NCBI RefSeq assembly: GCF_016756745.1
Contig: NZ_JAESIH010000022.1
Location: 1 to 42,768 of the forward strand
Source: Aminivibrio sp.
GTDB lineage: Bacteria; Synergistota; Synergistia; Synergistales; Aminobacteriaceae
Reading direction: 5' to 3'
Length of the DNA: 42,768 bases
Positions 1,423 to 29,287 of the stretch are shown here, in pieces; position 1 is the stretch's first letter, and every line of letters starts with the position of its first letter. A program made the position numbers and the translations under genes. Under the pieces are notes generated by a model that saw only the letters and a program-made list of their open reading frames with translations, ran no database searches and was not told where the DNA came from.

Positions 1423-1440
1423 GAAATAACCTCCGTAAAC

Positions 1441-1474
1441 AGGCCGGCCGGAGGGAGTCCCCTCCGGCCGGCCT
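1441..1474 (-). terminator. Perfect 15-bp hairpin between phosphatase and yibE/F
   Basis: AGGCCGGCCGGAGGG (1441-1455) pairs exactly with 1460-1474 around a 4-nt loop. It lies between the phosphatase stop and the yibE/F ribosome binding site. On the minus strand it is not followed by a clear U-tract (TGTTTACGG), so it may be a weak terminator, an attenuator or an mRNA 3'-end stabiliser. Confidence 0.6.
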
Positions 1475-1497
1475 TGTGATGTGAGTTTCCGGCTTTT

Positions 1498-9087: not shown

Positions 9088-9927
9088 TTACTTCTTTCCG
9101 TGTTTTTGCGGATGCCCGTGTTTGGGGGGCGGAGCTTTCGGATTGCCCTTCCCCGGACCGCCGTGGCCTTTCGGGGGAGGGGCGTACTGCGGCGGATGGC
9201 CGGGGCCGCCCTTCTGCGGGCCGTAATGTACTGGGGGATGGCCGTGGTGGTGTCCGGGGGGATTCCACCTGTGACGCGGAGGCATTCTCCGGTCATCGGA
9301 CCAATAACGCCGGGGAGGGAAAGGCATCCTCCGTAGGGAGTCGTGGTAGTACCTCCTGGGGGGAAGGGGGTGACGGTACGCGGGGCCCCGGGGGTGCCAC
9401 CTGTCCCGGTCTCTGTAATAAAAGAGGTCGAGAATGAGGGACGCGTGGACGTTCCCTTTTTCGTATTCCAGCACAAGTCCCGGAAGGGCGTCTCTCCAGA
9501 GGACGAGGGCTCGCCGTTTATCGACCCCGCGGCCGTACCCGGTGTGGTAATGGTACGCCAGCATGGCCTGGGCCATGGGGTTTCCTCCGGCGGCGCTTCT
9601 CTCGTACCAGTAGGCCGCCTGGAACGGGTCCTCGGAATACCCCCTGTCACCCCTGTCGAAACCCAGGCCGGCAAGAAACTCCATCTCCGGGTCTCCGTTA
9701 TCCGCTTCCGCCAGGACTTCGGCGAAAGAAAACCCGTCGTCCTCAGCGGAGCCGGGGAGAGAGTAAGGAGCGGAAAAAGCCGCCGGAATGGAAATGACGG
9801 CCGCGCTCCCTGAAGAAAAGACGGGGGCTGCCTCCGCGGGAAGGGAAAGAAATGCCGCAGAGAGGACGGCAAGGGCTGAAAACAGGGCCGGGGGAGGAAA
9901 GCTGAAACGGTGCGGTGTATCTTCCAT
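9088..9927 (-). CDS. Secreted Sel1-like protein with His/Pro/Gly-rich tail
   Basis: A 279-residue exported protein of unknown function. I chose ATG at 9927 because AAAGGAGG lies 9 nt upstream; the frame is open further but without a site. An N-terminal signal peptide (hydrophobic core 'LFSALAVLSAAFLSLPAEA') is followed by a region with Sel1/TPR-like helical repeats (EDPFQAAYWYERSAAGGNPMAQAMLAYHYHTGYGRGVDKRRALVLW). From about residue 165 to the end the chain is dominated by Pro, His, Arg and Gly (for example PPGHHHGHPPVHYGP and KHGHPQKHGKK), which could bind metal or polyanionic envelope components (inference). Sel1 proteins usually mediate protein contacts. Downstream hairpin at 9031-9062. 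Confidence 0.75.
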   Translation of the reverse strand: MEDTPHRFSFPPPALFSALAVLSAAFLSLPAEAAPVFSSGSAAVISIPAAFSAPYSLPGSAEDDGFSFAEVLAEADNGDPEMEFLAGLGFDRGDRGYSEDPFQAAYWYERSAAGGNPMAQAMLAYHYHTGYGRGVDKRRALVLWRDALPGLVLEYEKGNVHASLILDLFYYRDRDRWHPRGPAYRHPLPPRRYYHDSLRRMPFPPRRYWSDDRRMPPRHRWNPPGHHHGHPPVHYGPQKGGPGHPPQYAPPPKGHGGPGKGNPKAPPPKHGHPQKHGKK

Positions 9928-10092
9928 GAAAATTCGCCTCCTTTCGTTGTCCCGCCGCCGAAAGAAAAGCCGACAGTCCGGCCGGCGGAAGATGAACAAA
10001 ACGACCCATGAGTTTAATCATTATTTTAGACGGAAGGTCAGGAACCGGTACCGCTGTTCTACCGAACCGGAATGTTAGCCGTCTTTACTTAC

Positions 10093-10142
10093 CCTAAATC
10101 CGCAGGCACCGGTGACGCTCCCCGCTGAGGTGCGGATTTAGG
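10093..10142. repeat. Palindromic repeat, CCTAAATCCGCA family, copy A
   Basis: CCTAAATCCGCA (10093-10104) and TGCGGATTTAGG (10131-10142) form a perfect 12-bp terminal inverted repeat around GGCACCGGTGACGCTCCCCG-type sequence. The same ends and core recur at 31570-31832, 35148-35226 and 42593-42654. The rest of the non-coding stretch 9928-10394 contains the leader of the Sel1-like gene and nothing else I can assign. Confidence 0.8.
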
Positions 10143-10394
10143 CTTACGGAAGGCTATATATCGGAAACTCCATATTGTTGTAATATGTTATGCCCGGCAG
10201 CCGGAAGAGAGCGGGAGGATGTATTCGCCATGAAACGAGGGGCGTTCTCGTTTCCGTGCGGTTTTGAAGAGGACCGGAGAGCAGCGGGACCTGCGGCGAC
10301 TGCCTGGGGCGGATGGTGATCAGCGAAAGGGAGACAGGTATATTTTCCGACGGCCGAAGGGGAAACCGGGATCCTTCCCCCTCGGGGACGCAAT

Positions 10395-10485
10395 CGCCGC
10401 GCTCAGAATGACATACCGTCATCTGCCGTTGTAAGCATGTCATATTCCTGTTCTGTTATCCTGAGGAGCGAAGCGAAGAATCCGA
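10395..10485. repeat. TGTCATTCTGAG-type repeat cluster overlapping the opgH2 3' end
   Basis: Two units of the interspersed repeat are visible: GCTCAGAATGACA at 10401-10413 and TCCTGAGGAGCGAAGCGAAGAATC near 10460-10483 (read on the plus strand). The second unit runs into the coding sequence of the downstream OpgH copy and supplies its last codons and stop. Confidence 0.65.
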
Positions 10486-12606
10486 CCCTCGCTTTTTCTC
10501 TTTCTTTTCGGGAGGAACCAGGCCCCATCGAGCGGCGTCCTTTTCGTCGCCGAGGCGCCACACCTTCCTGTGGAGTTCCCGCAGGTGGTGCGGGGCCCTG
10601 AGGAGGGCCGTCTTTTCCTTCCGGTTCAGGGCGTCAGGCCCCGAGGCCAGCGCCTTTTCCACGATCCTGTCCCGGGCCCGTTCACGGGAAGGAGCTCCCC
10701 GCCGGAATCGGAGCAGCAGGGATGTGTGGAGACTGTGGACCAGGGGGTCCACCACCGCCCGGAGAAAACCTTTTTTCCGGTCGAAAAAGAACGGGAAGTA
10801 GGGTTCCGGGCGCAGGAGATTCTCCTCCAGGACCTGCAGTTCGGGGGGCAGCTCCACCTCCTCGGGGATGAGGAAGAGCCCTGATCTCCGGAACAGCCGT
10901 CCCACGGCGGCCCGTCCTGTGACGACGGAGATGGGGACGGAGAGGACCAGGGAGAAGATGACGGGGGAGATCCACCAGAAGAAGGACGGAGTGATCCGGT
11001 AGACCACCGTGCCCCAGCCGATGCCGAGGAGGGTGCCCCACCAGTGGGCCCGGAGGGCTTCCCTCCAGGTGGTTCCCCGATCGTCCCGGGACTGGGTTCC
11101 CCACCCCACGCTTTTTCCCAGGAGGGTGGACACTACGAAGAGGCTGTGGAAGACCATCCTGATGGGGGTGAGAATTATGGACAAAACCACCTCGAGGAGG
11201 ATGCTCAGGAAAAGACGTAACTTCCCACCGTAGAGCCTGGCCCTGAAATCGGCGAGGAGAATGGGTAAAGCGCTGAGAAACTTCGGGAGGAAGAGGAGCA
11301 GGGTGGTGGAGCCCAGCAGCGAGATGGCCCAGTGGGGACGCCATACGGGAAGCTCGGGGAGGAATTTTCGCAGTATGGGCATGTACACCGGTTCGAAGAG
11401 GACTTCCGAAATGGCCTGGGCGGAGTTGACCGTCAGGAAGGACAGCCAGAGAAGGGCCGAGCCGTAGGAGAGGATTCCGTTGATGAACAGCGCCCGGTGA
11501 GCGGGGAAGAAGCCCCGGGTGAAGAGCAGGCGGGTGTGCTGGAGGTTGCCCTGGCACCACCGGCGGTCCCGCTTGAGCTCGTCGATGAGGGTGGGGGGCG
11601 TTTCCTCCCATGTCCCCTTGAGGTCGTAGGTGAGCCAGATTCCGTACCCTGACCGGCACATGAGGGCCGACTCCACGTAGTCGTGGCTGAGGATGTCCCC
11701 GCTCAGCGGACCTTTGCCGGGAAGGCGGGGAAGCTCGCAGTGCTTTATGAAGGGGTCCACCCTGATTAGGGCGTTGTGGCCGCAGTACTGGGCATCGCCT
11801 AGCTGCCAGAAATGGAGACCCGCAGCCAGCAGGGGGCCGTAGACGTGGTTGGCGAACTGCTGCACCCGGGCGATGAGCGTTTCCCGGTTCACCGCCTTGG
11901 GAGGCGTCTGGAGGATGCCGATGTCCGGCCGAGCCTCCATGATCTGCACCAGCCGCACCAGAGTTTCGCCGCTCATGATGCTGTCGGCGTCGAAGACGGC
12001 CATGTACCGGTAGCTTTTGCCCCACCGGCGGCAGAAGTCGGCCACGTTGCCGCTTTTCCGCTTGGTGTTGCTGGTCCGCTTCCGGTAGAAGACCCGTCCG
12101 AAGGCGTTTTCCTCCGAACAGAACCTGTACCAGGCTTCTTCCTCCTCCACCCAGACGTCGGGATCGGTGGTATCGCTGAGCAGGAAGAAGTCGAACCGGT
12201 CCAGGGAGCCCGTCGCCCGGACGGACGCGTAGGTCGTCCGCAATCCCGCGACGACCCGCTTTACATCTTCGTTGTAGATGGGGATGAGGATGGCCGTTCG
12301 TGCCGCTTTGTCGGCGATGGTGAAGTCGAGACCGTCGCAGGCCCGGGAGACCCGGTAGGAGTCCTTTTTCGTCAGCAGGATGACCAGCCCCGCGATGGAA
12401 GTCCAGAAGCCCACGGAAATCCAGGCAAACAGGGTGGTGAACACCGCCACGAGGAATGTGTCCAGCAGGATGCTTCCTCGGTCGGGCAGGAGCCGGGCCA
12501 TGGTGTTGCTGGAGATGATGGTCGGGATGAGGACGATCAGGAGGAGCAGCAGGCGCCGCCTGCTGCCGGTGCGCCTCCAGGCCGGAACGGGTCCGCCGTC
12601 AGCCAT
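10456..12606 (-). CDS. opgH: Glucan biosynthesis glucosyltransferase OpgH, second copy (membrane-catalytic part)
   Basis: A 716-residue inner-membrane family-2 glycosyltransferase that would polymerise glucose from UDP-glucose into the backbone of osmoregulated periplasmic glucan. Visible are an N-terminal TM pair (about 18-80), the catalytic domain with AILIPIYNEDVKRV, LLSDTTDPD, the DAD motif in VFDADSIMSGET, SHDYVESALM and ELKRDRRWCQGNLQH (QxxRW-type), and about six C-terminal TMs. It lacks the roughly 130-residue cytoplasmic N terminus of E. coli OpgH; that part is encoded by the overlapping upstream ORF (ATGGCTGA, 8-nt overlap, GGAGGG site 7 nt before the ATG). The C terminus (GSDSSLRSSG) is encoded by an interspersed repeat. 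By eye about 70-80% identical to the first copy across the catalytic core. Confidence 0.92.
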   Translation of the reverse strand: MADGGPVPAWRRTGSRRRLLLLLIVLIPTIISSNTMARLLPDRGSILLDTFLVAVFTTLFAWISVGFWTSIAGLVILLTKKDSYRVSRACDGLDFTIADKAARTAILIPIYNEDVKRVVAGLRTTYASVRATGSLDRFDFFLLSDTTDPDVWVEEEEAWYRFCSEENAFGRVFYRKRTSNTKRKSGNVADFCRRWGKSYRYMAVFDADSIMSGETLVRLVQIMEARPDIGILQTPPKAVNRETLIARVQQFANHVYGPLLAAGLHFWQLGDAQYCGHNALIRVDPFIKHCELPRLPGKGPLSGDILSHDYVESALMCRSGYGIWLTYDLKGTWEETPPTLIDELKRDRRWCQGNLQHTRLLFTRGFFPAHRALFINGILSYGSALLWLSFLTVNSAQAISEVLFEPVYMPILRKFLPELPVWRPHWAISLLGSTTLLLFLPKFLSALPILLADFRARLYGGKLRLFLSILLEVVLSIILTPIRMVFHSLFVVSTLLGKSVGWGTQSRDDRGTTWREALRAHWWGTLLGIGWGTVVYRITPSFFWWISPVIFSLVLSVPISVVTGRAAVGRLFRRSGLFLIPEEVELPPELQVLEENLLRPEPYFPFFFDRKKGFLRAVVDPLVHSLHTSLLLRFRRGAPSRERARDRIVEKALASGPDALNRKEKTALLRAPHHLRELHRKVWRLGDEKDAARWGLVPPEKKEKKRGSDSSLRSSG

Positions 12607-13135
12607 TGGTTTTCCCTCCGAAGAGTTCCCGGCTCCACCGCCGAAGAAAACGGACGAGGGACGTCCTCCAGGGCAGGCGGTCCATTTCCTCCGCCACCAT
12701 GACGGCCCGGTTCAGCGGAGGAAAGGAGGAGATGCGCCGTCCTCCCCGATCCATGATGTCGGGTGAAAATCCTTCTTCCCGGAGCAGCCGCTCAAGGGCG
12801 TCCATGGCTTCTTCAGGGGATGACGGGGCTTCCTCAAGGCTCCGCGCGGCGAGGGAGAGACCCCTGGCAGGTTGGATGCCGAGCCCCCGGATATAAAGAA
12901 GGACCCTGTCCCCGGCAGCCCACTGCCCGGGGGCGGGCTCTTCGGAACAGGGTGCGGTGCGGTCGCCCGGACAGGTCACGGCAGCCTCCGGGAAAAGGGG
13001 GATGCAGCGAGGGAGCGGAAATGAAAGGAGGGGCGTCGGGACGGAAGGCCCCTTCCGGGAAACGTCTTCTCTGGATACACCGGGAAAACCTCCTGGCGGT
13101 TCGGTCTTGTGTTTATGAAGCCTATGAGACATCAT
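12599..13135 (-). CDS. Free-standing OpgH N-terminal domain, second copy
   Basis: A 178-residue soluble protein. Its C-terminal half (GDRVLLYIRGLGI..., ISSFPPLNRAVMVAEEMDRLPW, SLVRFLRRWSRELFG) parallels the small ORF upstream of the first opgH copy and resembles the cytoplasmic segment just before TM1 of E. coli OpgH (remembered as ...[23 protein letters not shown]). I infer it is the OpgH N-terminal region encoded separately. The start is uncertain: ATG at 13135 has GGAAGG 9 nt upstream and overlaps the preceding opgH by 14 nt. Its first about 80 residues look unlike the paralogue and are low-complexity, so a later start is possible. It ends inside the start of the next opgH, implying translational coupling. 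Confidence 0.7.
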   Translation of the reverse strand: MMSHRLHKHKTEPPGGFPGVSREDVSRKGPSVPTPLLSFPLPRCIPLFPEAAVTCPGDRTAPCSEEPAPGQWAAGDRVLLYIRGLGIQPARGLSLAARSLEEAPSSPEEAMDALERLLREEGFSPDIMDRGGRRISSFPPLNRAVMVAEEMDRLPWRTSLVRFLRRWSRELFGGKTNG

Positions 13136-15290
13136 ACGGGCATTCCTTCCGTCCTGCAAGGAAGGGGGAATTCCTATCCCCGGCCGGCGGGAGCACGACC
13201 AGTCCCCAGAGGGCGGCCGCGTCCCGGTCTTCCAGTTCCCATACCCGGCGGTGGAGTTCCGCCAGGCGGCGGGGGTCCTTCAGAAGCTCTATCTTCTCCC
13301 GTTGGGTGAGACTGCCCGGGCCTTTCGCGATGGCTTTTTCCACCAGCCCTTCCATGGCGTTCTCCCGGGCGGGGGCTTTCTTTTTGTAGCGCAGCAGGAG
13401 AGATGTGTGGAGGGCGTGGACAAGAGGGTCCACCACCGCACGGAGAAATCCCTGTTTCCGGGAGAAGGGGAAGGGCGTATAGGGTTCGGGACGCCGGAGG
13501 TTTTCCTCGAGGTCGGCGAGTTCGGCGGGGAGTTCCACTTCCTCCGGGATCAGGAGCAGGCCGGAGTTCCGGAAAGCCCTCCCCAGGGACGCACGGCTCG
13601 TGAAGACCGAGAGGGGCGCCGAGAGAACCAGAGAGACGACGATGGGGGAAATCCACGGGAAGAAGGACGGGTTGGCCAGGTAGACCAGGCCGCCCCAGGC
13701 AGCGCCGAAGAGGGTTCCCCACCAGTGGGCGGAAAGTGCCTCGCTCCAGGATGTTCCCCGGTCGTCCCGGGACTGGCTGCCCCACCCCACGCTTTTTCCT
13801 AGCAGTGTGGCGGTGACGAAGAGACTGTGGAAGATCATCCGCACCGGGGCGAGAAGGGTGGAAAGCCCCACCTCGAGCAGGATGCCCGAAACAAGGTTTG
13901 TCCTGCCGCCGAAAGCCCGTGCCGATGGGTCCCTCAGGAGGATGAGGACCATGCTGAAGAGCTTGGGGAGGAAGAGGAGCACCGCCGTGGAGCCGAGTAG
14001 GGTGAGCGCCCAGTGGGGGTGCCACACGGGCCACTGGGGGAAGAGGGTCTTCGTCCCGGGAAAGTACACCGGCTCGAAGAAAACTTCAGCAACGGCCTGG
14101 GCGGAGCTCAGCAGCAGGAAGGCAAGCCACAGGAGGGCGGACCCGTAGGAGAGAATGCCGTTAAGAAACAGGGCCCTGTGGGTGGGAAAGAACCCCCTGG
14201 TGAAGAGAAGGCGCATGTGCTGGAGGTTCCCCTGGCACCAGCGCCGGTCGCGCTTCAGTTCGTCCAGCAGGGTGGGCGGGGTTTCCTCCCAGCTTCCCCC
14301 GAGGTCGTAGGCCAGCCAGACGCCGTAGCCCGCCCGCCGCATGAGGGCGGCCTCCACGAAGTCATGGCTGAGGATGTCCCCCGCCAGGGGGCCTTTTCCC
14401 GGAAGGCGGGGTACCTGGCAGTACTTCATGAAGGGTTCCGTCCTGATGATGGCGTTGTGTCCCCAGTACTGGGCGTCTCCGAGCTGCCAGAAATGGAGGC
14501 CTGCGGCGAACATCGGGCCGTAGACATGGTTTGCGAACTGCTGGGCCCTGGCGATGAGGGTCTCCCGGTTCACTCCGGCGGGAGGCGTCTGGAGGATGCC
14601 GATGTCCGGCCGGGCCTCCATGCACTGCACCATGCGGACCAGAGTTGTGCCGGCCATGATGCTGTCGGCGTCGAAGACGATCATGTAGCGGTAGTTTTTC
14701 CCCCACCGGCGACAGAAGTCGGCCACGTTGCCGCTCTTTCGCCGTGAGTTGCTGGAACGCCTCCGGTAGAAAACCCGCCCTGAGGCGTTCTCCTCCCGGC
14801 AGAATCGCCGCCAGGCTTCTTCCTCCTCAACCCAGATGTCCGGGTCGGTGGTGTCGCTCAGCAGAAAGACGTCGAACAGGTCTGAGGAGCCGGTTTTCCC
14901 CAGGGAGGTGAACACGGTGCGGAGCCCCGCCATCACACGTTTTACATCCTCGTTGTAGATCGGTATGAGGACGGCGGTCCGAGCTGTTCTGTCGGCGATG
15001 GACCAGTCCATATGCTCGCAGGCCCGGGAAACGGAGAAACGGTTGTTTTTCCCCAGGAGGAGAAAGAAGCCCATGGAGGCCGTCCAGAATCCCACGGAAA
15101 TCCAGGCGAAAAGGACGGCGAACACCGCCACGAGGAGGAACTCCATGGCCGTGCCGCCCCGGAAGGGCAGCAGCGCGGCCATGGTGCGGGCGGCTGCGAT
15201 CGTGGGAAGGATGACCAGGACGATGAGCAGAATGCGCCGCCAACTGGCGGCGCGGTTCCACGAAGGGTTGGGCATCCCGGTGTCATGCAT
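13122..15290 (-). CDS. opgH: Glucan biosynthesis glucosyltransferase OpgH, first copy (membrane-catalytic part)
   Basis: A 722-residue membrane glycosyltransferase with the same design as the second copy: TM pair (about 20-75), GT2 domain with VLIPIYNEDVKRV, LLSDTTDPDIW, VFDADSIMAGT, AGLHFWQLGDAQYWGHNA, SHDFVEAALMRRAGYGVW and ELKRDRRWCQGNLQH, then C-terminal TMs. All catalytic motifs known for OpgH appear intact. I chose ATG at 15290 (MHDTGMP), which overlaps the stop of the small upstream ORF as ATGCATGA and has GGGAGA upstream; the frame stays open to 15350. E. coli OpgH is a single chain of about 847 residues, so this gene plus the preceding ORF together make one conventional OpgH. Confidence 0.93.
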   Translation of the reverse strand: MHDTGMPNPSWNRAASWRRILLIVLVILPTIAAARTMAALLPFRGGTAMEFLLVAVFAVLFAWISVGFWTASMGFFLLLGKNNRFSVSRACEHMDWSIADRTARTAVLIPIYNEDVKRVMAGLRTVFTSLGKTGSSDLFDVFLLSDTTDPDIWVEEEEAWRRFCREENASGRVFYRRRSSNSRRKSGNVADFCRRWGKNYRYMIVFDADSIMAGTTLVRMVQCMEARPDIGILQTPPAGVNRETLIARAQQFANHVYGPMFAAGLHFWQLGDAQYWGHNAIIRTEPFMKYCQVPRLPGKGPLAGDILSHDFVEAALMRRAGYGVWLAYDLGGSWEETPPTLLDELKRDRRWCQGNLQHMRLLFTRGFFPTHRALFLNGILSYGSALLWLAFLLLSSAQAVAEVFFEPVYFPGTKTLFPQWPVWHPHWALTLLGSTAVLLFLPKLFSMVLILLRDPSARAFGGRTNLVSGILLEVGLSTLLAPVRMIFHSLFVTATLLGKSVGWGSQSRDDRGTSWSEALSAHWWGTLFGAAWGGLVYLANPSFFPWISPIVVSLVLSAPLSVFTSRASLGRAFRNSGLLLIPEEVELPAELADLEENLRRPEPYTPFPFSRKQGFLRAVVDPLVHALHTSLLLRYKKKAPARENAMEGLVEKAIAKGPGSLTQREKIELLKDPRRLAELHRRVWELEDRDAAALWGLVVLPPAGDRNSPFLAGRKECPYDVS

Positions 15291-15675
15291 GGCCGTTTGT
15301 CTCCCAGGGGCCGAAAAGATTCCGCCTCCACCGGCGGAGGAAGCGGCCAAGGGCTGATTTCCATGGAACCCGGTCGAGGGGCTCCGCCACCATGACTCCC
15401 CTGTTCAGGGAAGGCATCGAGGAGATGTGCTTCCCTTCCTCGTCGAGGATTCCCCTGTCGAGGCCGTTTTCCGCCAGGAGTTCCCGGAGTTTTTTCACGG
15501 CCTCCGAGGTGGACGCGGGGCCGGTTGCCTTGAGGCTCTCCACGGCCAGGTCGAGCCCTCGAAAGGGAGGCAGGTCAAGGGCACGGACGTAGAGGAGAAC
15601 CCGGTCCCTGGAGTAGCGCCACTCGTCGTGGGATCCGGCGGGCCTATTCATTCCGGTCTCAGGGATGGAGGTCAT
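15283..15675 (-). CDS. Free-standing OpgH N-terminal domain, first copy
   Basis: A 130-residue soluble protein between opgG and opgH. Its body (RYSRDRVLLYVRALDLPPFRG...ESLKATG...VKKLRELLAENG) is a helical domain, and its end (ISSMPSLNRGVMVAEPLDRV followed by LGRFLRRWRRNLFG) matches the region that precedes TM1 in single-chain OpgH. ATG at 15675 overlaps the opgG stop by 17 nt and has CGGAG about 10 nt upstream; ATG at 15651, 8 nt past that stop, is the alternative. Overlaps at both ends make it part of one coupled operon. In E. coli this N-terminal region is reported to contact FtsZ; whether the free form does is unknown. Confidence 0.8.
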   Translation of the reverse strand: MTSIPETGMNRPAGSHDEWRYSRDRVLLYVRALDLPPFRGLDLAVESLKATGPASTSEAVKKLRELLAENGLDRGILDEEGKHISSMPSLNRGVMVAEPLDRVPWKSALGRFLRRWRRNLFGPWETNGHA

Positions 15676-17329
15676 AGGTCCACGTCTCCGTAAGGGGATC
15701 GGGGAGGTTCTCTCCCTTTTTGAGAAGGGCGGTGATCCGGATGTAGGGCCTTGCCGCCTGGGTCGGGAAAATGGTCTTGAGTTTGCCCTTCGGGTCGACG
15801 GCAATGTGCAGGACGAGGCGCCATCCCCCGGTGACCTCGTTTTTCAGCAACTGCTTCTCGAGAAGACGGCCCCCTTCACCCACGGTGACCACGCTCGTCA
15901 GTCCCGAGTCCCCGGGAAGGTCGGCCAGCTGCCCGCCCTCGAAGTCCAGGACGAAGCGCACCGTCCCTTCCTGGTTCCCGGCGGCCATTCTGCTCGCCGC
16001 GGCCCTGCCGAGGGGGTGGACGGTTTCCGAGGGGTGCATCCATCGCATCCGGTACGCGAAGGACATCTCGCCGGGGTATTTCCGCACGTCATTTATCGGC
16101 AGACCGTCTGCGCCCGTCTCTTCAATTTTATCGGGAACCCAGTACGCCACCATGTTGTCGTGAATCTCCAGTTCCGAGGGAATTTCCACCAGCTCCACCC
16201 TTCCCGGTCCCCATGAACCCCGGGGTTCGATCCAGAGGGAGGGGCGCTTCTCGTATCGTGCCTCCAGGTCCTGGTAGTGGTCGAAGGTCCCGTCGCGCTG
16301 CATCAGGCCGAAGCCGGCAGGATTGACCTGGGGGTAGAGGATAACGGCAAGGCGGGAGGGGTTTGCCAGGGGACGCCAGATCCACTCGCCGGACTCGGTG
16401 TGCATCAGGAGACCGTCGGAATCGTGGACTTCGGGGCGATAATCCCCCTGCCGGCCGTTTTCCGTCTCCCCGTAAAGGAACATACTCGTCAGGGGGGCGA
16501 TGCCGAGCTTCTGCAGGTCCTTCCGCAGAAAAAGGGTGCTCTCGGCGTCCATGACGGTCTCCTTCCCTGGAATGACGGTGAAGGCGTAGGCGCCGGTGAG
16601 GCCGGGACTGTCCAGGAGTGCGTAGATCCTGATGAGGGTGCTCTCCGGGGCGGGCTTCTCGATCCAGAACTCGCGGAAGTAGGGGAACTCCTCCCCCGAC
16701 TGGAGGGCCGTGTCGACGGCGAGCCCCCGGGCGGAAAGACCGTACTGCACGTCCCGGGCCACGGCACGGAAGTAGCTGGCCCCCAGGAAGACCACCGCCT
16801 CGTCCTTGTAATTCCCGGAATTGAGGTTGCAGTGAATCCGGAAACCGGCGAAGTCGAGGGGCGTTGATGCCACTTTCGAAGCGAATTCGTTGTCGCCGTA
16901 GTCGAAGGCCGAAGAGGAGAAGGGGAGCTTCTCCGACCGTCCGTTTTCAATGATGTTGATCGTGACCAACCTGTTGTAGAAAAGCCCGGGGTGGAAGAAC
17001 TGCACCTCGAAAGGCAGGCCTTCCGCCCTCCACAGGGATTCGGAGGGACGGAAGCGGATTTTCCGCCACTGGTCGTAGCTGATGTTCAGCAGAAAATCGG
17101 GAACCTGCCCCTCCGGGTTCTCGAAGGGCCGGGATGCCAGTTCTTCGGCCTTTTGCTTTACATCGTCGAAGGAGAAGTGGAGGACTGCCGCAGGGCCGGA
17201 CTGAACGGCGTCCCCCGGGGGCGTCTCCGATGCCCCGGGGGACGCGGGAAGCAAGCAAAACGCCGCCGCGAGGAACGCGGCGACGGCTATCTGACGGTAT
17301 GAGCGATGGCGCCGAATGCAGGGGAACAC
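15659..17329 (-). CDS. opgG: Periplasmic glucan biosynthesis protein OpgG
   Basis: A 556-residue periplasmic protein of the OpgG/OpgD family, needed with OpgH to form and branch osmoregulated glucans. The start is GTG at 17329: AAGGAGGG lies 6 nt upstream and the product then begins with a typical signal peptide (RRHRSYRQIAVAAFLAAAFC...). ATG at 17377 in the same frame has no ribosome binding site. Family features: FSFDDVKQKAEELASRPFE, DFLLNISYDQWRKIRFRP, FHPGLFYNRLVTINI, REFWIEKPAPES and the C-terminal Ig-like domain ending TWTYDLHP. A plausible promoter, TTGCGC-16-TATCAT, lies in the 105 nt between the GGDEF-EAL gene and this start. First gene of the opg operon. Confidence 0.92.
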   Translation of the reverse strand: MFPCIRRHRSYRQIAVAAFLAAAFCLLPASPGASETPPGDAVQSGPAAVLHFSFDDVKQKAEELASRPFENPEGQVPDFLLNISYDQWRKIRFRPSESLWRAEGLPFEVQFFHPGLFYNRLVTINIIENGRSEKLPFSSSAFDYGDNEFASKVASTPLDFAGFRIHCNLNSGNYKDEAVVFLGASYFRAVARDVQYGLSARGLAVDTALQSGEEFPYFREFWIEKPAPESTLIRIYALLDSPGLTGAYAFTVIPGKETVMDAESTLFLRKDLQKLGIAPLTSMFLYGETENGRQGDYRPEVHDSDGLLMHTESGEWIWRPLANPSRLAVILYPQVNPAGFGLMQRDGTFDHYQDLEARYEKRPSLWIEPRGSWGPGRVELVEIPSELEIHDNMVAYWVPDKIEETGADGLPINDVRKYPGEMSFAYRMRWMHPSETVHPLGRAAASRMAAGNQEGTVRFVLDFEGGQLADLPGDSGLTSVVTVGEGGRLLEKQLLKNEVTGGWRLVLHIAVDPKGKLKTIFPTQAARPYIRITALLKKGENLPDPLTETWTYDLHP

Positions 17330-17434
17330 GAAGGACCCTCCTTGGCCGGATTTTCCGGACCGGTTGTGAAATAACATACATCATGATAAGCCTTTTTTGC
17401 CGGAGCGCAATGAGGGAGGGAAATTTCCCTGTTT

Positions 17435-19927
17435 TCAGAAAACATCCGGAAGTTCCGAGACGACGAACTGGGGGATCCGCTCCGGCGGCAGGGGACGGGA
17501 GAAGATGTAGCCCTGGATGGAGGCCGCCATCCCCTCAGGAATGAGTCTTCTCAGCTTTTTGAGCTGCTCCATGGTCTCGACCCCCTCGAAGGTCACCTCC
17601 ATCCGCAGGTTTGCCGCGAGGTGGATCATTGTGGAGACCACACCCCGGGTTTTTTCGTTTTCCATGTCCAGCATGAAGGACCGGTCGATCTTGAGTTCCG
17701 ATATGGGCAGCATGCGGAGTTGTGAAAGGGAGGAAAACCCGGTGCCGAAGTCGTCCAGGGAGAAGCGGATGCCCTTCTCTCCCAGTTTCGCCATAACTTC
17801 CCGGGCGTGGTCCGGGTTCTCCATGAAGGCGGACTCGGTGATCTCGAGCTGGAGGAAGTAGGGGTTCATGCCCGTCCGCTCCACGATTTCCAGGACACCC
17901 GTCACGAACGATTCCGAGGAGATCTGCTTCGCCGAGATGTTCACCGCCACGGGGATTTCCATTTTCCGGGCGGCCCACTCCACCCACCGGAGGCAGACCT
18001 GTTCGAGGGCAAAAGCGCCGAGGGCCCGGATTTCGCCGATTTCCTCCGCCAGGGGGATGAAGATGTCGGGGGGGATCATGGTCCCGTCTGCCGAAGTCCA
18101 GCGGAGCAGGGCCTCCAACCCCACGGTTTTCCGTTCTCCCAGGCTGATCTTGGGCTGGTAGAAAAGGTGGAACTCCCCGGCGTCGAAACCCCGCCGGAGG
18201 TCGGACTCCAGGCGCATCCTGCGCTGGATTTTCCTGTCGAGGTCCTCGGTGAAAAGCCTCCAGGTGTTCCCCCCTTCCCGCTTGGCCCGCTCCATGGAGA
18301 GGGAGGCGTTCTGGAGGAGTTCCTCGGGGGTTTCCCCGTCCCGGGGATAAAAGGTGACTCCGGCGCTGGCGGTGATCCTGTAGGAATGGCCCCCCACGGA
18401 GAAGGGGTTTCTGAGGATCGCGAACATTCGCTCCACCGTCCGGAGAGAGGAAGAGTAGGAGTCTCCCCCGGTGAGCAGAACGACGAATTCGTCCCCGCCG
18501 AATCGGGCCACGGCTCCCGGTTCGGCGGCCGCCCCGGCGAGCCTTTTGCCCACCTCCTGGAGCAGCCCGTCTCCCACGGGGTAGCCCAGGGTCTTGTTTA
18601 CAGACCCGAACCGGTCCAGGCCGATCATGATCACCGAAAGGATCTGTTGTTTTTCCCTGGCCCTGGAGAAGGCGAGGGAGAGCCTGTCATGGAAGAGGAA
18701 GCGGTTGGGCAGGCCCGTCAGCCCGTCGTGGTTCACCTCGTGCAGCAGCAGGTGCCGGCTTTGGTGGAGTTCGGTCAGGTCCTGGTAGACGCCGATGTAG
18801 CGGCTTACTTTCCCTTCGCCGCCGGCGTAGGCGAAGATGTTCAGCCGGGAGGGAAAGGCTTCGCCGTTCTTCCGGCGGTCCCATATCTCGCCCGACCACT
18901 GGCCGTCTTTCCTGAGGGCGTCCCACATTTTCCGGTAAAAATCGGGGCCGTGCTTGTCCGACTTCAGCATGTCCGGCGTTTTGCCTATGATCTCTTCCGG
19001 ACCGTACCCTGTGATGGCGGTGAAGGCCCGGTTGACTTCGAGAATGCGCCCCTCGGTGTCGGTGATCATGATCCCCTCGGCTGCGTTCCGGTAGATTTGG
19101 GTAATGAGGGCGAGCTGGTTCTCGGACCGGGCAAGCTCCAGGGTTTTTTCCTTCAGGCTCCGGTCCAGGAGCGCGGCATGGGCTGCCTTTCTTCCGAGAA
19201 GGACCGCCCTGAGGCTCAGGAAGAGAGAGACCGCCCCCGCCGCAGCGATGGAAAGAAGTCCCGCGGCCACGAAGCGCATTTTCCATGCGGCCATGCTCTT
19301 TTTCGCATCGTCGATGTAGACTCCCGTCCCCACGATCCAGTTCCACGGCTCGAAAAGGGCCACGCAGGATGTTTTCGGGGTCAGGGTGTTCAGATCGTCC
19401 TTGAATTGCCACTGGTAGTCCACTATTCCCCTCCGTTCGGGGGAGGAGACGGCGGTTTCGATCCTGTCGAAGAGCCTGCGGAGGAGAACGCCGTCCGGCC
19501 CGGCGGTGGTGTCCGGGTTCGCGCCCTCGAGATCGGGCCGGTAGGGGTGCATGAGGAGGGTTCTTTCGGGCCCGAGGATCCAGAAGTAGTCCTTTTCCAT
19601 TTCTCCGAAGCGGAGGGAGCGGATGCGGGTGAGAGCCCGGGCCTTGGCCTCCCCCGGAGGGATCTTCCCTGCGAGTTCCTCCCTGTGCAGGGCTTCGAGG
19701 TAATGGAGCTGCACCAGGATCAGATTTCTGCAGAGGTCCCTTTTTTCCGCCATGTGGCTTTCTTCAAGGAGGGGAAGCAGAACGCCGAAAATCACGGCGA
19801 AAAGAATAACCAGCAGGAAGGAAACAGGAGCCATGGTCTGGAGGAAGGTTCGGAGAAACACCCGATCTCCGGCGAGCTGAACGACCTTTTCCATGTTGTA
19901 GGCCGGAGCCTGGGGTCTTTCCGCCAT
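17435..19927 (-). CDS. Cache-PAS-GGDEF-EAL membrane cyclic-di-GMP enzyme
   Basis: An 830-residue membrane sensor. From ATG at 19927 (GGAAGGAG 9 nt upstream): TM about 33-55, periplasmic single-Cache domain about 58-210 (KDYFWILGPERTLLMHPYRP), TM about 217-242, PAS about 270-385, GGDEF about 400-555 and EAL about 575-825. The GGDEF signature RFGGDEF is intact. The inhibitory RxxD site is missing; the matching residues are AEPG. EAL residues are all present: LEALLRW, AVNISAKQI, EITESAFM, DDFGTGFSS, LKIDRSFM and FEGVET. Both synthesis and breakdown of c-di-GMP are therefore possible. A TATAAT at 19985-19990 marks a likely promoter. It lies 105 nt before opgG on the same strand. Confidence 0.93.
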   Translation of the reverse strand: MAERPQAPAYNMEKVVQLAGDRVFLRTFLQTMAPVSFLLVILFAVIFGVLLPLLEESHMAEKRDLCRNLILVQLHYLEALHREELAGKIPPGEAKARALTRIRSLRFGEMEKDYFWILGPERTLLMHPYRPDLEGANPDTTAGPDGVLLRRLFDRIETAVSSPERRGIVDYQWQFKDDLNTLTPKTSCVALFEPWNWIVGTGVYIDDAKKSMAAWKMRFVAAGLLSIAAAGAVSLFLSLRAVLLGRKAAHAALLDRSLKEKTLELARSENQLALITQIYRNAAEGIMITDTEGRILEVNRAFTAITGYGPEEIIGKTPDMLKSDKHGPDFYRKMWDALRKDGQWSGEIWDRRKNGEAFPSRLNIFAYAGGEGKVSRYIGVYQDLTELHQSRHLLLHEVNHDGLTGLPNRFLFHDRLSLAFSRAREKQQILSVIMIGLDRFGSVNKTLGYPVGDGLLQEVGKRLAGAAAEPGAVARFGGDEFVVLLTGGDSYSSSLRTVERMFAILRNPFSVGGHSYRITASAGVTFYPRDGETPEELLQNASLSMERAKREGGNTWRLFTEDLDRKIQRRMRLESDLRRGFDAGEFHLFYQPKISLGERKTVGLEALLRWTSADGTMIPPDIFIPLAEEIGEIRALGAFALEQVCLRWVEWAARKMEIPVAVNISAKQISSESFVTGVLEIVERTGMNPYFLQLEITESAFMENPDHAREVMAKLGEKGIRFSLDDFGTGFSSLSQLRMLPISELKIDRSFMLDMENEKTRGVVSTMIHLAANLRMEVTFEGVETMEQLKKLRRLIPEGMAASIQGYIFSRPLPPERIPQFVVSELPDVF

Positions 19928-19984
19928 GGGGAGGCTCTCCTTCCGGTATAAGAGGCCGGAAACCGTTTTCCGAGCCATTCCTGT

Positions 19985-25278: not shown

Positions 25279-27279
25279 TCAGGGGGCAGGCCGCAGCCCC
25301 CCGATCTCCGTCAGGGATTTCAGTTCGTCCGCCACCAGGGCGCGGACATGGTCTTCAAGCTCGTTTCTGGTCGCGGCAAGCCTGGAATCGAGCCAGGCAG
25401 CCATGGCTTCCTCGAGATTCCTCTCCGCTTCCTCCATTCCCGCTTCCGTCATGAGAAAAACCGCTGCCGCCGGAGGGAGGGGAATCTCTTCCGCCATTTT
25501 CCTGACCCTGTCCCGTCCCCAGCGCACCATGAGTACCGACAGGGCAAGCCCGGCAGCGCCGCCTACTGCCAGCCCCAGGGGTCCGGCTGCCACGAGGGCC
25601 GTACCGGCCCCCCCGCAGAGCAGGGCTGTCCCGGCGGTGACCAGGCTTCCGAGAACCCCGGCGAGGACGTTCACCACGCCGTCCATTCCCGAAATCTCAA
25701 TGGAGATGGAATCTTCCTTCCGGCCGCTGTCTGCACTTAGGGAAGCTCTTCCCGGAGGAGGGGTGACGCCGTGGCGGGCGAACCACCGGGCGGTGAGCTC
25801 CCGGGTTTCCTCCGCCAGGCCCGGAAGCACCCCGGGCAAATTTTTCTCCAGGCTTTCCCGAATCAGGGGGGCCTCCGCGGCGAGCCGTTCGTCGAGCCGC
25901 CTGCGGAGGGATGCGAGGGACCCCCCGGTGCTCCTGAACTCCTCGAGGAGGGGGCGCAGCTTCTTCCGGAAGAATTCGTTCCCCGTCTCGGCGAGAATGC
26001 GTTCCTTAACGGCGGTACACCTGCGGACGAGAACGGGCCCAATCTCGTTCTCCAGGAAGCCGGGAAGCTCGGAGGCGAGCGCCTCCCTGACGGAGGCGAA
26101 CTTCGCCGTCAGGGCCGGGAGAAGGGCCAGCCCCATGGAGATGACCGCGTAGGGCCGTTCGCTCCGGAGAAGGATCCTCCGCTCCGAAGTCTGCCGGTCG
26201 GAGAGGGGAAAGCGGAGTTCCTCCCTGAGGATGTCGGGGACGAAGGGCCAGAGGCTGCTTCCTCCGGCGAGAATGACCAGGGAAATCCTCAGGGGCTCTA
26301 TGCCTCTCTCGTTCAGTCCCGAGAGCAGACACTCCCTGAACATGAGGAAAAGATCGGTTCCTTCCGGCGTCAGCCCCGGGACCCCTTCCGCCTGAGCCGT
26401 TCGCCGGAGAAAGGCCGAGGGGGAGTAGACGGACCCCCGGCGCTGGAATTCCGCCCACGTCATGTTCCGTATCCCTCCGTAGCCAGGAAGGATTTTCGAT
26501 ACGGTCTCGTCCCTGTCCCGGGCCATGGACCGGGAGAAAAACTCCTTCGCCTCCCGGCAGAGGTGGGACTGGACGAAGTAGGCGGATCCCTGTTCCTCCA
26601 ATTTTTCTTCCAGGCCGGGATTCCGGTCGAGAAGCCACTGGTAGAACAGGTCATCGAAAAGCCGTCCCCCCAGGTTCATGTCTCCCCAGGAGTGGACGGG
26701 TTTCCCCCCTTCCAGGAAGGCGAAGTCGCAGGTGCCCCCTCCGAAGTCCGCCACAAGGACGCCCTCCAGGGCCTGTTCGGCGGAAATGTCCCCCTGTCTG
26801 AGGTGGTAGAGCAGGGCCCCCTTCGGCTCGTCCACGAGATCCGGAAGGCCGAAGCCCCCCTGCCGGGCTGTTTCCCGGAGGGCGGCCCGGAAGGCCTCGT
26901 CGGCCTCGCTGGGAACGCCGAAAAGAACCTGCCTGCGGTCCGGCTCCAGGTCGAGATGCTGTTTCCTCGCACCGGCGAGCACGGCGGCAAGGAAATCGGA
27001 TGCCGCGGTTCTTGCCGCTTCCGAGCGGGCCAGGTCGGCCTTGAAGTTGGTTCGCAGGCGAAGGGTCCGCCGCTCTTCCGGGGAGGCCTCGCCGTAGGCG
27101 TCCAGGGCCGTCTGGCCCACAAGGGGGTCCTTTCCCTCCCGGTAGAGGATGGCGGAGGGTATACCGTCCCTTCCGTCGCCGAAATCGATGCTCACCGGTG
27201 AGGGGTCGTCGCCGGGGCACTTGGAGAAGTAGGTTTTCGTAGTGCCGAAGTCGGCGGCAAGCACGGAACGGCCGCTCAT
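25279..27279 (-). CDS. Hsp70-like ATPase with C-terminal membrane segment
   Basis: A 666-residue protein with an Hsp70/actin-type ATPase domain (about 1-390): phosphate-1 loop VLAADFGTTKTYFSK, phosphate-2 loop LVADFGGGTCDFAFLEGG and adenosine motif LVILAGGSSLWPFV. After it there is no DnaK-type substrate-binding beta-sandwich. Instead come helical residues (about 400-520), a Gly/Ala-rich hydrophobic region of about 50 residues (VNVLAGVLGSLVTAGTALLC...LALSVLMV) and a helical tail. The start overlaps the upstream stop as ATGA, so it is coupled to the GrpE-like gene. I infer a membrane-tethered, specialised chaperone or regulator. It is unlike standard DnaK in length and C terminus. Confidence 0.85.
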   Translation of the reverse strand: MSGRSVLAADFGTTKTYFSKCPGDDPSPVSIDFGDGRDGIPSAILYREGKDPLVGQTALDAYGEASPEERRTLRLRTNFKADLARSEAARTAASDFLAAVLAGARKQHLDLEPDRRQVLFGVPSEADEAFRAALRETARQGGFGLPDLVDEPKGALLYHLRQGDISAEQALEGVLVADFGGGTCDFAFLEGGKPVHSWGDMNLGGRLFDDLFYQWLLDRNPGLEEKLEEQGSAYFVQSHLCREAKEFFSRSMARDRDETVSKILPGYGGIRNMTWAEFQRRGSVYSPSAFLRRTAQAEGVPGLTPEGTDLFLMFRECLLSGLNERGIEPLRISLVILAGGSSLWPFVPDILREELRFPLSDRQTSERRILLRSERPYAVISMGLALLPALTAKFASVREALASELPGFLENEIGPVLVRRCTAVKERILAETGNEFFRKKLRPLLEEFRSTGGSLASLRRRLDERLAAEAPLIRESLEKNLPGVLPGLAEETRELTARWFARHGVTPPPGRASLSADSGRKEDSISIEISGMDGVVNVLAGVLGSLVTAGTALLCGGAGTALVAAGPLGLAVGGAAGLALSVLMVRWGRDRVRKMAEEIPLPPAAAVFLMTEAGMEEAERNLEEAMAAWLDSRLAATRNELEDHVRALVADELKSLTEIGGLRPAP

Positions 27280-28358
27280 GGATTGCGCACCTTCCGCACC
27301 AGACCCCGGCGGAGAACCCTGCCGTCCCTCAGGAGGGGAGGGCGCTCCACCCTCACCCGGTCGCCCGGTTCGACATACCCGAAGACCTCGAACCTCTCCG
27401 CCGCCTCGGGATTCCACCCGAATTCCCCAGCTTCTCCGGCGCTGCCGAATCCGAGGTTGCGGACGTCACCAGCGAGTTCGTCCATTCCGGCAGCCAGGTC
27501 GTCCCGGGAAGCCCCCTCCAGGGCGAGAATTTTCGCCGCGAGGGCCGGCATTTCCCTGTCGGCGAGGGGTGTTTCGGCACCTGGTTCCGCGCCTGTTTCC
27601 GCCCGGCCGACCAGGAAGGCAACCCGGGCGGCCGCTTCGAGCCAGGCAGAGAGGTCTTCTTCGATCCTTTCAGCCCATGCCGTGCGGTCCAGCCGTTCCG
27701 TTCTTCGGCCGAGCAGGAGCAGCAGGGCCAGGAGGGCGGGAAAAAGCACAAGGCGGGAAAGGGAGCCACGGTTTGTCCGGAGGAGATTCCAGCCCCGGGA
27801 GAGAAGGGATCCGGATCCGAGGAAGGCGAGAGCCTCCCGAAGTGTGGCCAGGCCGAGAAGCCCAGCCAGTGCCCCGAGCAGCTTCCGGTTTTCGGGAAGG
27901 CGGAGGGCGGCAAGGGAGAGGCCGAAGGCTCCAAGAGGCGCGCCGAGAAGGAATCCCGCCTCCCGGGAGCCGAAAAAGAAGGCCGTGAGGGGAGAGAAAA
28001 ACCCCATGCCGATCAGGGCCCCCGCCCCCGCCGCCAGCCCCGTCCGGAGGGGAGGAGCGCTCCGGTCCACCGTGGGGGCGGACGCCGGGAAGGGTGGAAG
28101 GTGTTCCTGCAGCCTCAGGGCGAAGAGAGCGCCCTTTCCTTCGTCCTCCAGACCGAGGGCCCGGGCGAACCCGGGCGAGACAACCTCCAGCGCCCGGCCT
28201 TCCGCGCGGCCGCAGGCCGTGCGGAAGGCCCCGGTTCCGGGAATCCCCTCTTCGGGAAGGAGGGCCAGGAAGGCGTCCCTGCCTTCCTCCGCCGCCTTTT
28301 TCCGAAAAGGTTCCGTTGTCTTTAAAAACTGATCAAGGGTCAATGGTCCCGGTTTCAC
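27276..28358 (-). CDS. Membrane protein with GrpE-like C-terminal end
   Basis: A 360-residue protein, coupled by an ATGA overlap to the Hsp70-like gene. Residues about 106-218 contain four hydrophobic segments. Residues 222-300 are helical, and the end (FEVFGYVEPGDRVRVERPPL, LRDGRVLRRGLVRKV; about 323-357) resembles the beta-wing of GrpE, where GDxVLEVVRPGY...GRVLRPAxVxV is usual. I therefore infer a membrane-bound nucleotide-exchange partner for the Hsp70-like protein; this rests on motif resemblance only. Start is GTG at 28358 behind AAAGGAGGTGATC, a near-perfect complement of the 16S rRNA 3' end, implying strong initiation. The first 100 residues match nothing I know. Confidence 0.65.
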   Translation of the reverse strand: MKPGPLTLDQFLKTTEPFRKKAAEEGRDAFLALLPEEGIPGTGAFRTACGRAEGRALEVVSPGFARALGLEDEGKGALFALRLQEHLPPFPASAPTVDRSAPPLRTGLAAGAGALIGMGFFSPLTAFFFGSREAGFLLGAPLGAFGLSLAALRLPENRKLLGALAGLLGLATLREALAFLGSGSLLSRGWNLLRTNRGSLSRLVLFPALLALLLLLGRRTERLDRTAWAERIEEDLSAWLEAAARVAFLVGRAETGAEPGAETPLADREMPALAAKILALEGASRDDLAAGMDELAGDVRNLGFGSAGEAGEFGWNPEAAERFEVFGYVEPGDRVRVERPPLLRDGRVLRRGLVRKVRNP

Positions 28359-28473
28359 GGGATCACCTCCTTTATTCTTTATGGATGGGCACTAGCGTAT
28401 CCTTCCCGGGGCGGAAGGGCAAGGGGTATTTCGCGAAAAAAGCGGAAGGTTCATTCCATGGGCCGGCGCAAAG

Positions 28474-28533: not shown

Positions 28534-28980
28534 TTAATATTTCGGGTGCAGGTCGAAGGTCCTGGCCATGCCCTCGTATTCGCAGGGCCTTCCTACGGAG
28601 TACCGTACCTGGTTGAAGTCCACGGTCGCAATCTTGGTGTCCGTGGTCGAACCGATATATGTCTCCGGATACCCTCCGTCATGGCTGCAGATAGTGCGGC
28701 TTGCAAGATGGGCAGGAAGCCACTCTTTCCCATTGGTAATCTTTTCCACCAGCTCGCCCTTCTTGGTGATGTAGGAGTGGGATGTCCATATCTTCCTGAT
28801 CTTGTCGGCATCGAGTTTTCCGAAGTTCATCTTTGCCTGCCAGAATGCGGTGTGATAACGGGTTGCGCTCAGAGGAGCATAGTCTTCATCGCCGAAGAAT
28901 GTCATTGGGAAATCAGTTCTCTCGTTGTTGGCATCATAGCTGTGGTTTGCGACGAAGTGATTGGTCGCCACGATGAATCC
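28534..28980 (-). pseudogene. 3' fragment of a C45-family acyltransferase/amidohydrolase
   Basis: About 148 codons of the C-terminal half of an isopenicillin-N acyltransferase-like (MEROPS C45) protein: GFIVATNHFVANH, ATRYHTAFWQAK, ADKIRKIWTSHSY, SRTICSHDGGYPETYIGST and VRYSVGRPCEYEGM. The N-terminal half, including the autocatalytic cysteine, is missing, and the frame upstream of about 28980 reads as nonsense. No start with a ribosome binding site is visible. These enzymes are self-processing Ntn hydrolases that cleave or form amides. Truncation by rearrangement is the simplest reading. Confidence 0.7.
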
Positions 28981-28990
28981 GGGGAAAATG

Positions 28991-29287
28991 GAGCTACCGG
29001 CCCGGGAGCATGTTGTGGATGAGGCCGCCCAGAGGTTCGCGGACTTTCTCGATGGTGTGGTGGGCTTTGTGGAGAAGGGGAAGCCGAGGCTGTTTTCCGG
29101 AGCCTCCGTTGCGGTCGTTCTCTCTGCGGAAGAGGAGCACTTCCACGAGGACGGCATGTCCTCGTTCCGATACCGCTCGGAGGCTGGGCTAAACCTACGA
29201 CGGGAGCGCCTGTCTCTCTCGATGCCGGACTGCCGGGTCCCCACGGGACCACGGGAGGCGGAGAAAAGCAAAAGCGGACCCTTTTGA
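28991..29287 (+). pseudogene. Unrecognised coding remnant on the plus strand
   Basis: The plus frame from about 28991 to a stop at 29287 reads like real protein for its first 55 codons (REHVVDEAAQRFADFLDGVV, then KPRLFSGASVAVVLSAEEEH) with genome-like codon use, while the opposite strand here is not protein-like. It faintly recalls the core of flavin nitroreductases, in which a GAPxxxVVLS segment precedes the Asp-rich turn. The start is lost at the junction with the C45-type fragment. It is either a second gene fragment joined head-on or chance. Confidence 0.3.

Follow-up and report, generated by a model that had tools for sequence, protein, structure and literature searches.

Organization of the locus

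The window analysed here is a stretch of 42,768 nucleotides from Aminivibrio sp. On its minus strand lie two genes joined by an ATGA overlap, gene 1 upstream and gene 2 downstream (25279-28358). This coupling, with exactly these coordinates, had been noticed in an original prediction made from the sequence letters. Gene 1 encodes a membrane protein whose C terminus is probably GrpE-like in fold, and gene 2 encodes an Hsp70-like ATPase with a predicted membrane hairpin near its C-terminal end (Table 1). Upstream of the pair there is an open reading frame (28534-29271, minus strand) with a weak coding score and no Pfam match, which may be a gene remnant. Further along the window (10456-19978, minus strand), a gene for MdoG-type periplasmic glucan synthesis adjoins two family-2 glycosyltransferase genes and a gene for a GGDEF-EAL c-di-GMP phosphodiesterase.

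Table 1. Genes, predicted protein regions and ribosome-binding site of the pair (positions are those of the window)
Feature	Position	Strand	Description or basis
Shine-Dalgarno sequence of gene 1, AAAGGAGGTGATCC	28360-28373	minus	Pairs perfectly over 14 nt with the 16S 3′ end
Gene 1, membrane protein with GrpE-like C terminus	27276-28358	minus	GTG start, 360 aa
Gene 1 residues 103-217, about four predicted TM helices	27708-28052	minus	AlphaFold2 model and hydrophobic sequence
Gene 1 residues 225-360, GrpE-like region	27279-27686	minus	Secondary structure, Foldseek, profile alignment, conservation
Gene 2, Hsp70-like ATPase whose C-terminal part has a predicted membrane hairpin	25279-27279	minus	ATG start, 666 aa
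Gene 2 residues 1-372, Hsp70 nucleotide-binding domain	26164-27279	minus	VIA-align to DnaK and hhalign
Gene 2 residues 379-502, long helical arm replacing linker and substrate-binding domain	25774-26145	minus	Predicted structure
Gene 2 residues 533-587, glycine-rich transmembrane hairpin	25519-25683	minus	Predicted structure and conserved glycine-rich pattern
Gene 2 residues 612-654, 43-residue return helix	25318-25446	minus	Predicted structure

The ribosome-binding site of gene 1 is as strong as had been claimed. Its Shine-Dalgarno sequence pairs with 14 nucleotides at the 3′ end of the 16S rRNA of the same genome (GGATCACCTCCTTT) with zero mismatches. The site is truly exceptional, since the 2.94 Mb assembly has just two occurrences of its core 12-mer, AAGGAGGTGATC, one at this site and one as the complement of the 16S end. 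In relatives of the same genus the Shine-Dalgarno sequence is retained with one mismatch, and in other phyla the ribosome-binding site of gene 1 is ordinary.

An intact Hsp70 ATPase domain

Gene 2 has a complete and conserved Hsp70 nucleotide-binding domain (NBD), in line with the intact ATPase core that the original prediction had stated. Its AlphaFold2 model (mean pLDDT 83.8) superposes on DnaK over 333 residues with a VIA-align Z of 34.6 and an rmsd of 2.8 Å, and hhalign against the NBDs of the genome's own Hsp70 proteins gives a probability of 99.2 (E 1.5e-19). The Pfam HSP70 family is matched above its cut-off, over a stretch of 100 residues only. The nearest NCBIfam models are those of HscA and DnaK, with HscA reaching 41.5 bits against a family cut-off of 708.6. 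In an alignment of 45 homologues, the phosphate-binding and catalytic motifs (DFGT, DFGGGTCD, LGGRLFDD, KE.FS and GGS) are conserved, as are the residues at the catalytic positions: D10, T13, K80, E151, D178, T183, D185, K245 and S249. The same assembly carries two DnaK genes, one of them directly 3′ of a normal GrpE gene (contig C71, about 9385-10701; contig C64, 622-2400), and on contig C31 a shorter Hsp70 gene adjoins a J-domain gene.

A predicted membrane protein with a probable GrpE-like tail

The AlphaFold2 model of gene 1 (pLDDT 88.5) consists of N-terminal helices, about four TM helices and a tail, so the TM segments, helical stretch and beta-wing-like end that had been read from the sequence all reappear in the predicted structure. 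Within the tail, a helix of 30 residues (225-254) is followed by two shorter ones (266-281 and 285-301) and then by a beta wing at 304-356. Conservation within the protein is highest in this beta wing and in the TM regions.

The tail is likely to be GrpE-like in fold, judging from its model. In a Foldseek search, the E. coli GrpE bound to DnaK (1dkg) was matched with a probability of 0.92, Thermus GrpE (3a6m) with 0.82 and 0.75, and human GrpEL1 (9blt) with 0.54, whereas all non-GrpE entries among the 50 matches listed had probabilities of at most 0.28. With the whole chain as query, these GrpE matches have E values from 0.085 to about 1 and TM-scores of about 0.34-0.38 of the target. When VIA-align was run with the model of the complete gene 1 protein, the 50 entries listed were mostly helices of ABC transporters and included no GrpE. 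At the level of sequence profiles, our own profile-profile alignment places gene 1 residues 267-355 colinear with residues 102-196 of GrpE, its C-terminal half. The score of this alignment was reached by 0, 2 and 30 of 200 column shuffles at three offsets, being 0 at the laxest, and is thus sensitive to the offset; a first scoring scheme, based on expected BLOSUM values, was uninformative.

Gene 1 matches no family in Pfam, NCBIfam or PADLOC. Two sets of gene 1 homologues (29 and 45) yielded no consistent Pfam or NCBIfam family, and no member of either set matched GrpE there. In addition, hhalign against GrpE from Synergistota gave a probability below 1%, and a PDB profile search yielded only designed helical bundles and other chance matches. 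The proposed resemblance to GrpE is thus upheld by the predicted structure and marginally by our profile comparison, while Pfam, NCBIfam and hhalign do not support it. We describe gene 1 as 'GrpE-like in fold', given the marginal sequence-profile support; membership of the GrpE family is unproven.

These negative searches are also what speaks for an alternative in which gene 1 would serve in the membrane as an anchor or as a transport component. Its small beta domain would then be unrelated to GrpE, the likeness would be coincidental and no nucleotide exchange would take place. Every sequence-based family search is indeed negative. Nevertheless, the structural matches with the highest probabilities are several independent GrpE entries, and the partner of gene 1 is an Hsp70 ATPase, which is the known target of GrpE. 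We consider a coincidental likeness unlikely.

The predicted helical arm and membrane hairpin of gene 2

After residue 372, the model of gene 2 lacks both a VLLLDV-type linker and a beta-sandwich substrate-binding domain. As had been proposed, a TM-containing C terminus, with a predicted hairpin, takes their place. The arm is predicted to form helices at 379-451 (73 residues), 455-484 and 488-502, and a disordered stretch separates it from the hairpin, whose tip (557-577) is poorly predicted, with pLDDT below 50. No family match was obtained for this C-terminal half.

The order of the parts, that is, a head, a long helical stalk, a glycine-rich hairpin and a return helix, is that of bacterial dynamin-like proteins. 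This suggests an alternative in which the protein is an ATP-driven membrane remodeller whose C-terminal half is a dynamin-like stalk and membrane paddle, with the Hsp70 ATPase in the place of the GTPase. Several matches point in the same direction. Among 38 C termini of the gene 2 family, 23 matched the PADLOC model LeoBC (best 2.1e-9) and 11 matched LeoB (best 2.8e-10), and in several members the matches are long and colinear. Furthermore, the bacterial dynamin-like protein BDLP (2j68) is among the matches (E 0.64), and a dynamin-like protein from Synergistota aligns to the same C-terminal region. However, reversed sequences still score 4.6e-5 with LeoB and about 0.004 with LeoBC, and nearly all of the signal disappears when the hairpin is masked. 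Composition therefore accounts for much of the LeoB and LeoBC signal. A profile search of 23 dynamin-like proteins likewise returned weak matches only. Dynamin homology of the arm was consequently downgraded, as these controls leave an architectural likeness for which homology is not established. The whole genome has no Dynamin_N match at E 1e-12, and the head of gene 2 is Hsp70-like and not a GTPase.

We regard this remodeller reading as improbable. Its fuller form seems still more doubtful to us. This would be a hitherto unreported kind of machine that uses ATP to remodel or tether membranes; the GTPase of a dynamin-like stalk and paddle would be replaced by an Hsp70 ATPase domain, and a dedicated GrpE-like protein integrated in the membrane would reset that domain. 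A role in anti-phage defence was set aside, there being no specific PADLOC support for it apart from the dynamin-like arm. In the Rhodopila locus L043, a gene that looks like a P-loop GTPase of the dynamin type (595-2475, minus strand) is separated from the pair by about 3 kb and has the opposite orientation, and relatives of this gene are found in L049, L050 and L052.

Conservation and distribution of the pair

Gene 1 is a near-constant partner of gene 2. A scan of genome contigs found 44 gene 2 loci. Two of them, L039 and L045, start right at the end of a contig, so that 42 could be tested for the partner, and in 40 of these 42 a gene 1 homologue precedes gene 2 in the same orientation. The loci belong to Synergistota, Planctomycetota, Chromatiaceae, Rhodopila and other Acetobacteraceae, and to records labelled Deltaproteobacteria, Myxococcales, Chlamydiae and CSSED10-310. 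The two genes usually overlap or lie within about 100 bp of each other and are farther apart in a few cases, for instance in L024 and L029. A partner adjoining the ATPase gene is absent from two of the testable loci (L023 and L026). Both are from Planctomycetaceae, and in L026 the gene upstream encodes an AAA-type ATP-binding protein instead (4323-5588).

The co-occurrence of the two genes is equally close at the level of genomes. In Synergistota, both are present in the identical 9 of 61 genomes. In the order of Allochromatium, gene 1 is present in 13 of 147 genomes and gene 2 in 12 of those 13, the thirteenth partner gene lying at the edge of its contig, which would cut off the ATPase gene. 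All 12 locus genomes counted have one partner gene each. The recurrence across phyla and the identical genome sets show that the pairing is not due to chance, so the genome search supports the dedicated pair that had been proposed. Neither of the outcomes named beforehand as contradicting the original prediction, a predicted C-terminal fold of gene 1 unlike GrpE or a pair that is seldom adjacent elsewhere, was observed. Within groups the pair occurs sporadically, and this favours an optional role over a housekeeping one.

No third gene family was found to be constant across phyla among the clusters of open reading frames, apart from probable chance matches. The suggested link with the adjoining LysE-type exporter did not hold: the LysE gene lies 3′ of the pair only in the window and in one genus relative, and other lineages have unrelated genes there. 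Other neighbours were discarded in the same way as lineage-specific, namely a murein transglycosylase gene overlapping the ATPase gene in another family of Synergistota (genomes G039, G041, G052 and G053) and lipase or SOUL-like genes in Chromatiaceae.

Some loci depart from the common layout. In two loci from rumen or gut planctomycetes, two tandem Hsp70-like ATPase genes follow one partner gene (L035, 5989-10566; L037, 5989-9490). In a record of Candidatus Thiodictyon intracellulare (L051), which is connected with Pseudoblepharisma tenue by the name of its contig, the ATPase gene is broken up into different frames, and a genome of the same order (G143, contig C268) has in-frame stops in both genes of the pair. 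It looks as if the pair decays together in these two records.

Probable independence from J-proteins

The genome encodes five J domains, on contigs C9, C31, C61 and C86, and none of them is near the pair, since the window is contig C22. This bears out the observation that no DnaJ gene lies nearby. The positions of DnaK that are reported to be involved in DnaJ binding include N170 and T173 (PMC4022485). In the gene 2 family, the DnaJ contact residues (R167, N170 and T173 in DnaK) are not retained. Position 147 of gene 2, equivalent to R167, is mostly E, R, K or D; position 150, equivalent to N170, is D, E, P or H and never N; and position 153, equivalent to T173, is K, L, I, F, V or E and never T.

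A proposed mechanism

The reading that we favour, with a probability of roughly 0.6, is that the pair forms a two-protein, membrane-embedded ATPase of the Hsp70 class with a dedicated putative GrpE-like exchange factor, in which the nucleotide cycle moves the arm and the hairpin. Membrane tethering of both proteins, as originally proposed, is supported by prediction. Since an even number of TM helices is predicted for each of the two, the ATPase domain of gene 2 and the GrpE-like tail of gene 1 should lie on one side of the membrane, presumably the cytoplasmic one. Gene 2 would be anchored there by the predicted TM hairpin at the end of its long helical arm. GrpE opens the cleft of the NBD by means of a beta wing that is inserted between the lobes (PMC4753570, PMC12987570), and gene 1 therefore most likely resets gene 2. 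In effect, the beta wing of gene 1 would pry open the nucleotide cleft of gene 2 and allow ADP to be released. The continuous helical arm may then pass the movement of the lobes between the ATP and ADP states on to the membrane hairpin, to the TM bundle of gene 1 or to both, and not to a bound client. On this reading, the pair would be a switch or lever at the membrane that is driven by nucleotides and is independent of J-proteins. Candidates for what it might act on are the shape of the membrane, a substance that is transported and the assembly of the envelope.

An Hsp70 domain and a GrpE-like factor that are both at the membrane could also constitute a specialised chaperone for membrane proteins, that is, a localised DnaK-GrpE system in which the hairpin or the arm, or gene 1, binds unfolded membrane segments. 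Nevertheless, the linker and substrate-binding domain are missing, no J-domain gene is nearby and the DnaJ contact residues are not retained. The sporadic distribution is also unlike that of a housekeeping chaperone, and we judge this possibility to be quite unlikely. Finally, an actin-like membrane filament of the MreB or FtsA kind, in place of an Hsp70-type switch, is very improbable, because the weak MreB and EutA family matches to the phosphate-binding region of gene 2 are those expected of any member of the fold, while its best fold matches are all to Hsp70 and span the whole NBD, and its partner is GrpE-like.

Relation to known systems

Among the closest known systems is the DnaK-GrpE complex (PDB 1dkg; PMC4753570). 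Like DnaK, gene 2 has a complete Hsp70 ATPase domain in which the catalytic residues are conserved, and in the model of gene 1 a long helix is followed by short helices and then by a beta wing at the C terminus, which is the order found in GrpE. In contrast to that complex, gene 2 has neither linker, nor substrate-binding domain, nor DnaJ contact residues, both proteins of the pair are predicted to be membrane-embedded, and gene 1 cannot be recognised as GrpE by its sequence.

Pairs of GrpE and Hsp70 genes in one operon are already known. For instance, plasmid pPg_01 of Pseudanabaena galeata (L165, 3456-5587) carries an annotated grpE gene overlapping an Hsp70-family gene, which is an operon-encoded pair of soluble proteins and is followed by genes for a DUF1257 protein, an ATP-binding protein and a DUF2997 protein. 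Kaur et al. (2020, PMC7159879) similarly describe HSP70/GrpE gene neighbourhoods, some with an HSP70 that lacks the peptide-binding domain. A dedicated GrpE or GrpE-like protein encoded beside a divergent Hsp70 is common to these systems and to our pair; the gene overlap recurs in the Pseudanabaena case, and the loss of the substrate-binding domain recurs in part of the neighbourhoods that Kaur et al. describe. They differ in that their GrpE proteins are recognised as such, unlike gene 1, and in their neighbouring genes, which in that study include some DnaJ fusions; its passage on these neighbourhoods describes no membrane-embedded GrpE (PMC7159879).

Bacterial dynamin-like proteins (BDLP1; LeoABC, PMC4159319) have in common with gene 2 a nucleotide-driven head, a long helical stalk, a glycine-rich hydrophobic hairpin and a return helix, together with the weak LeoB and LeoBC matches. 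Nevertheless, the head of gene 2 is an Hsp70-type ATPase and not a GTPase, and the likeness of the stalk is one of layout. As for the specialised bacterial Hsp70 proteins HscA and HscC, gene 2 shares their ATPase domain. Both of them retain the linker and the substrate-binding domain, which gene 2 does not have. In the literature searched, which included a minority of subscription journals, neither the pair itself, nor a GrpE-like partner embedded in the membrane, nor an Hsp70 ATPase carried on an arm with a membrane hairpin was found to be described.

Implications

Hsp70 is commonly regarded as a chaperone that binds clients. The pair suggests that several phyla have put its nucleotide switch to another use, without the client-binding part but with a GrpE-like partner for resetting, as a motor or switch that is built into the membrane. 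It thereby provides a testable system for asking whether the motion of Hsp70 can do mechanical work on a membrane. According to a 2015 review, eubacterial genomes encode a single exchange factor for Hsp70, which is GrpE (PMC4753570). The pair points to a second, membrane-integrated family of GrpE-like proteins that has been missed by sequence annotation.
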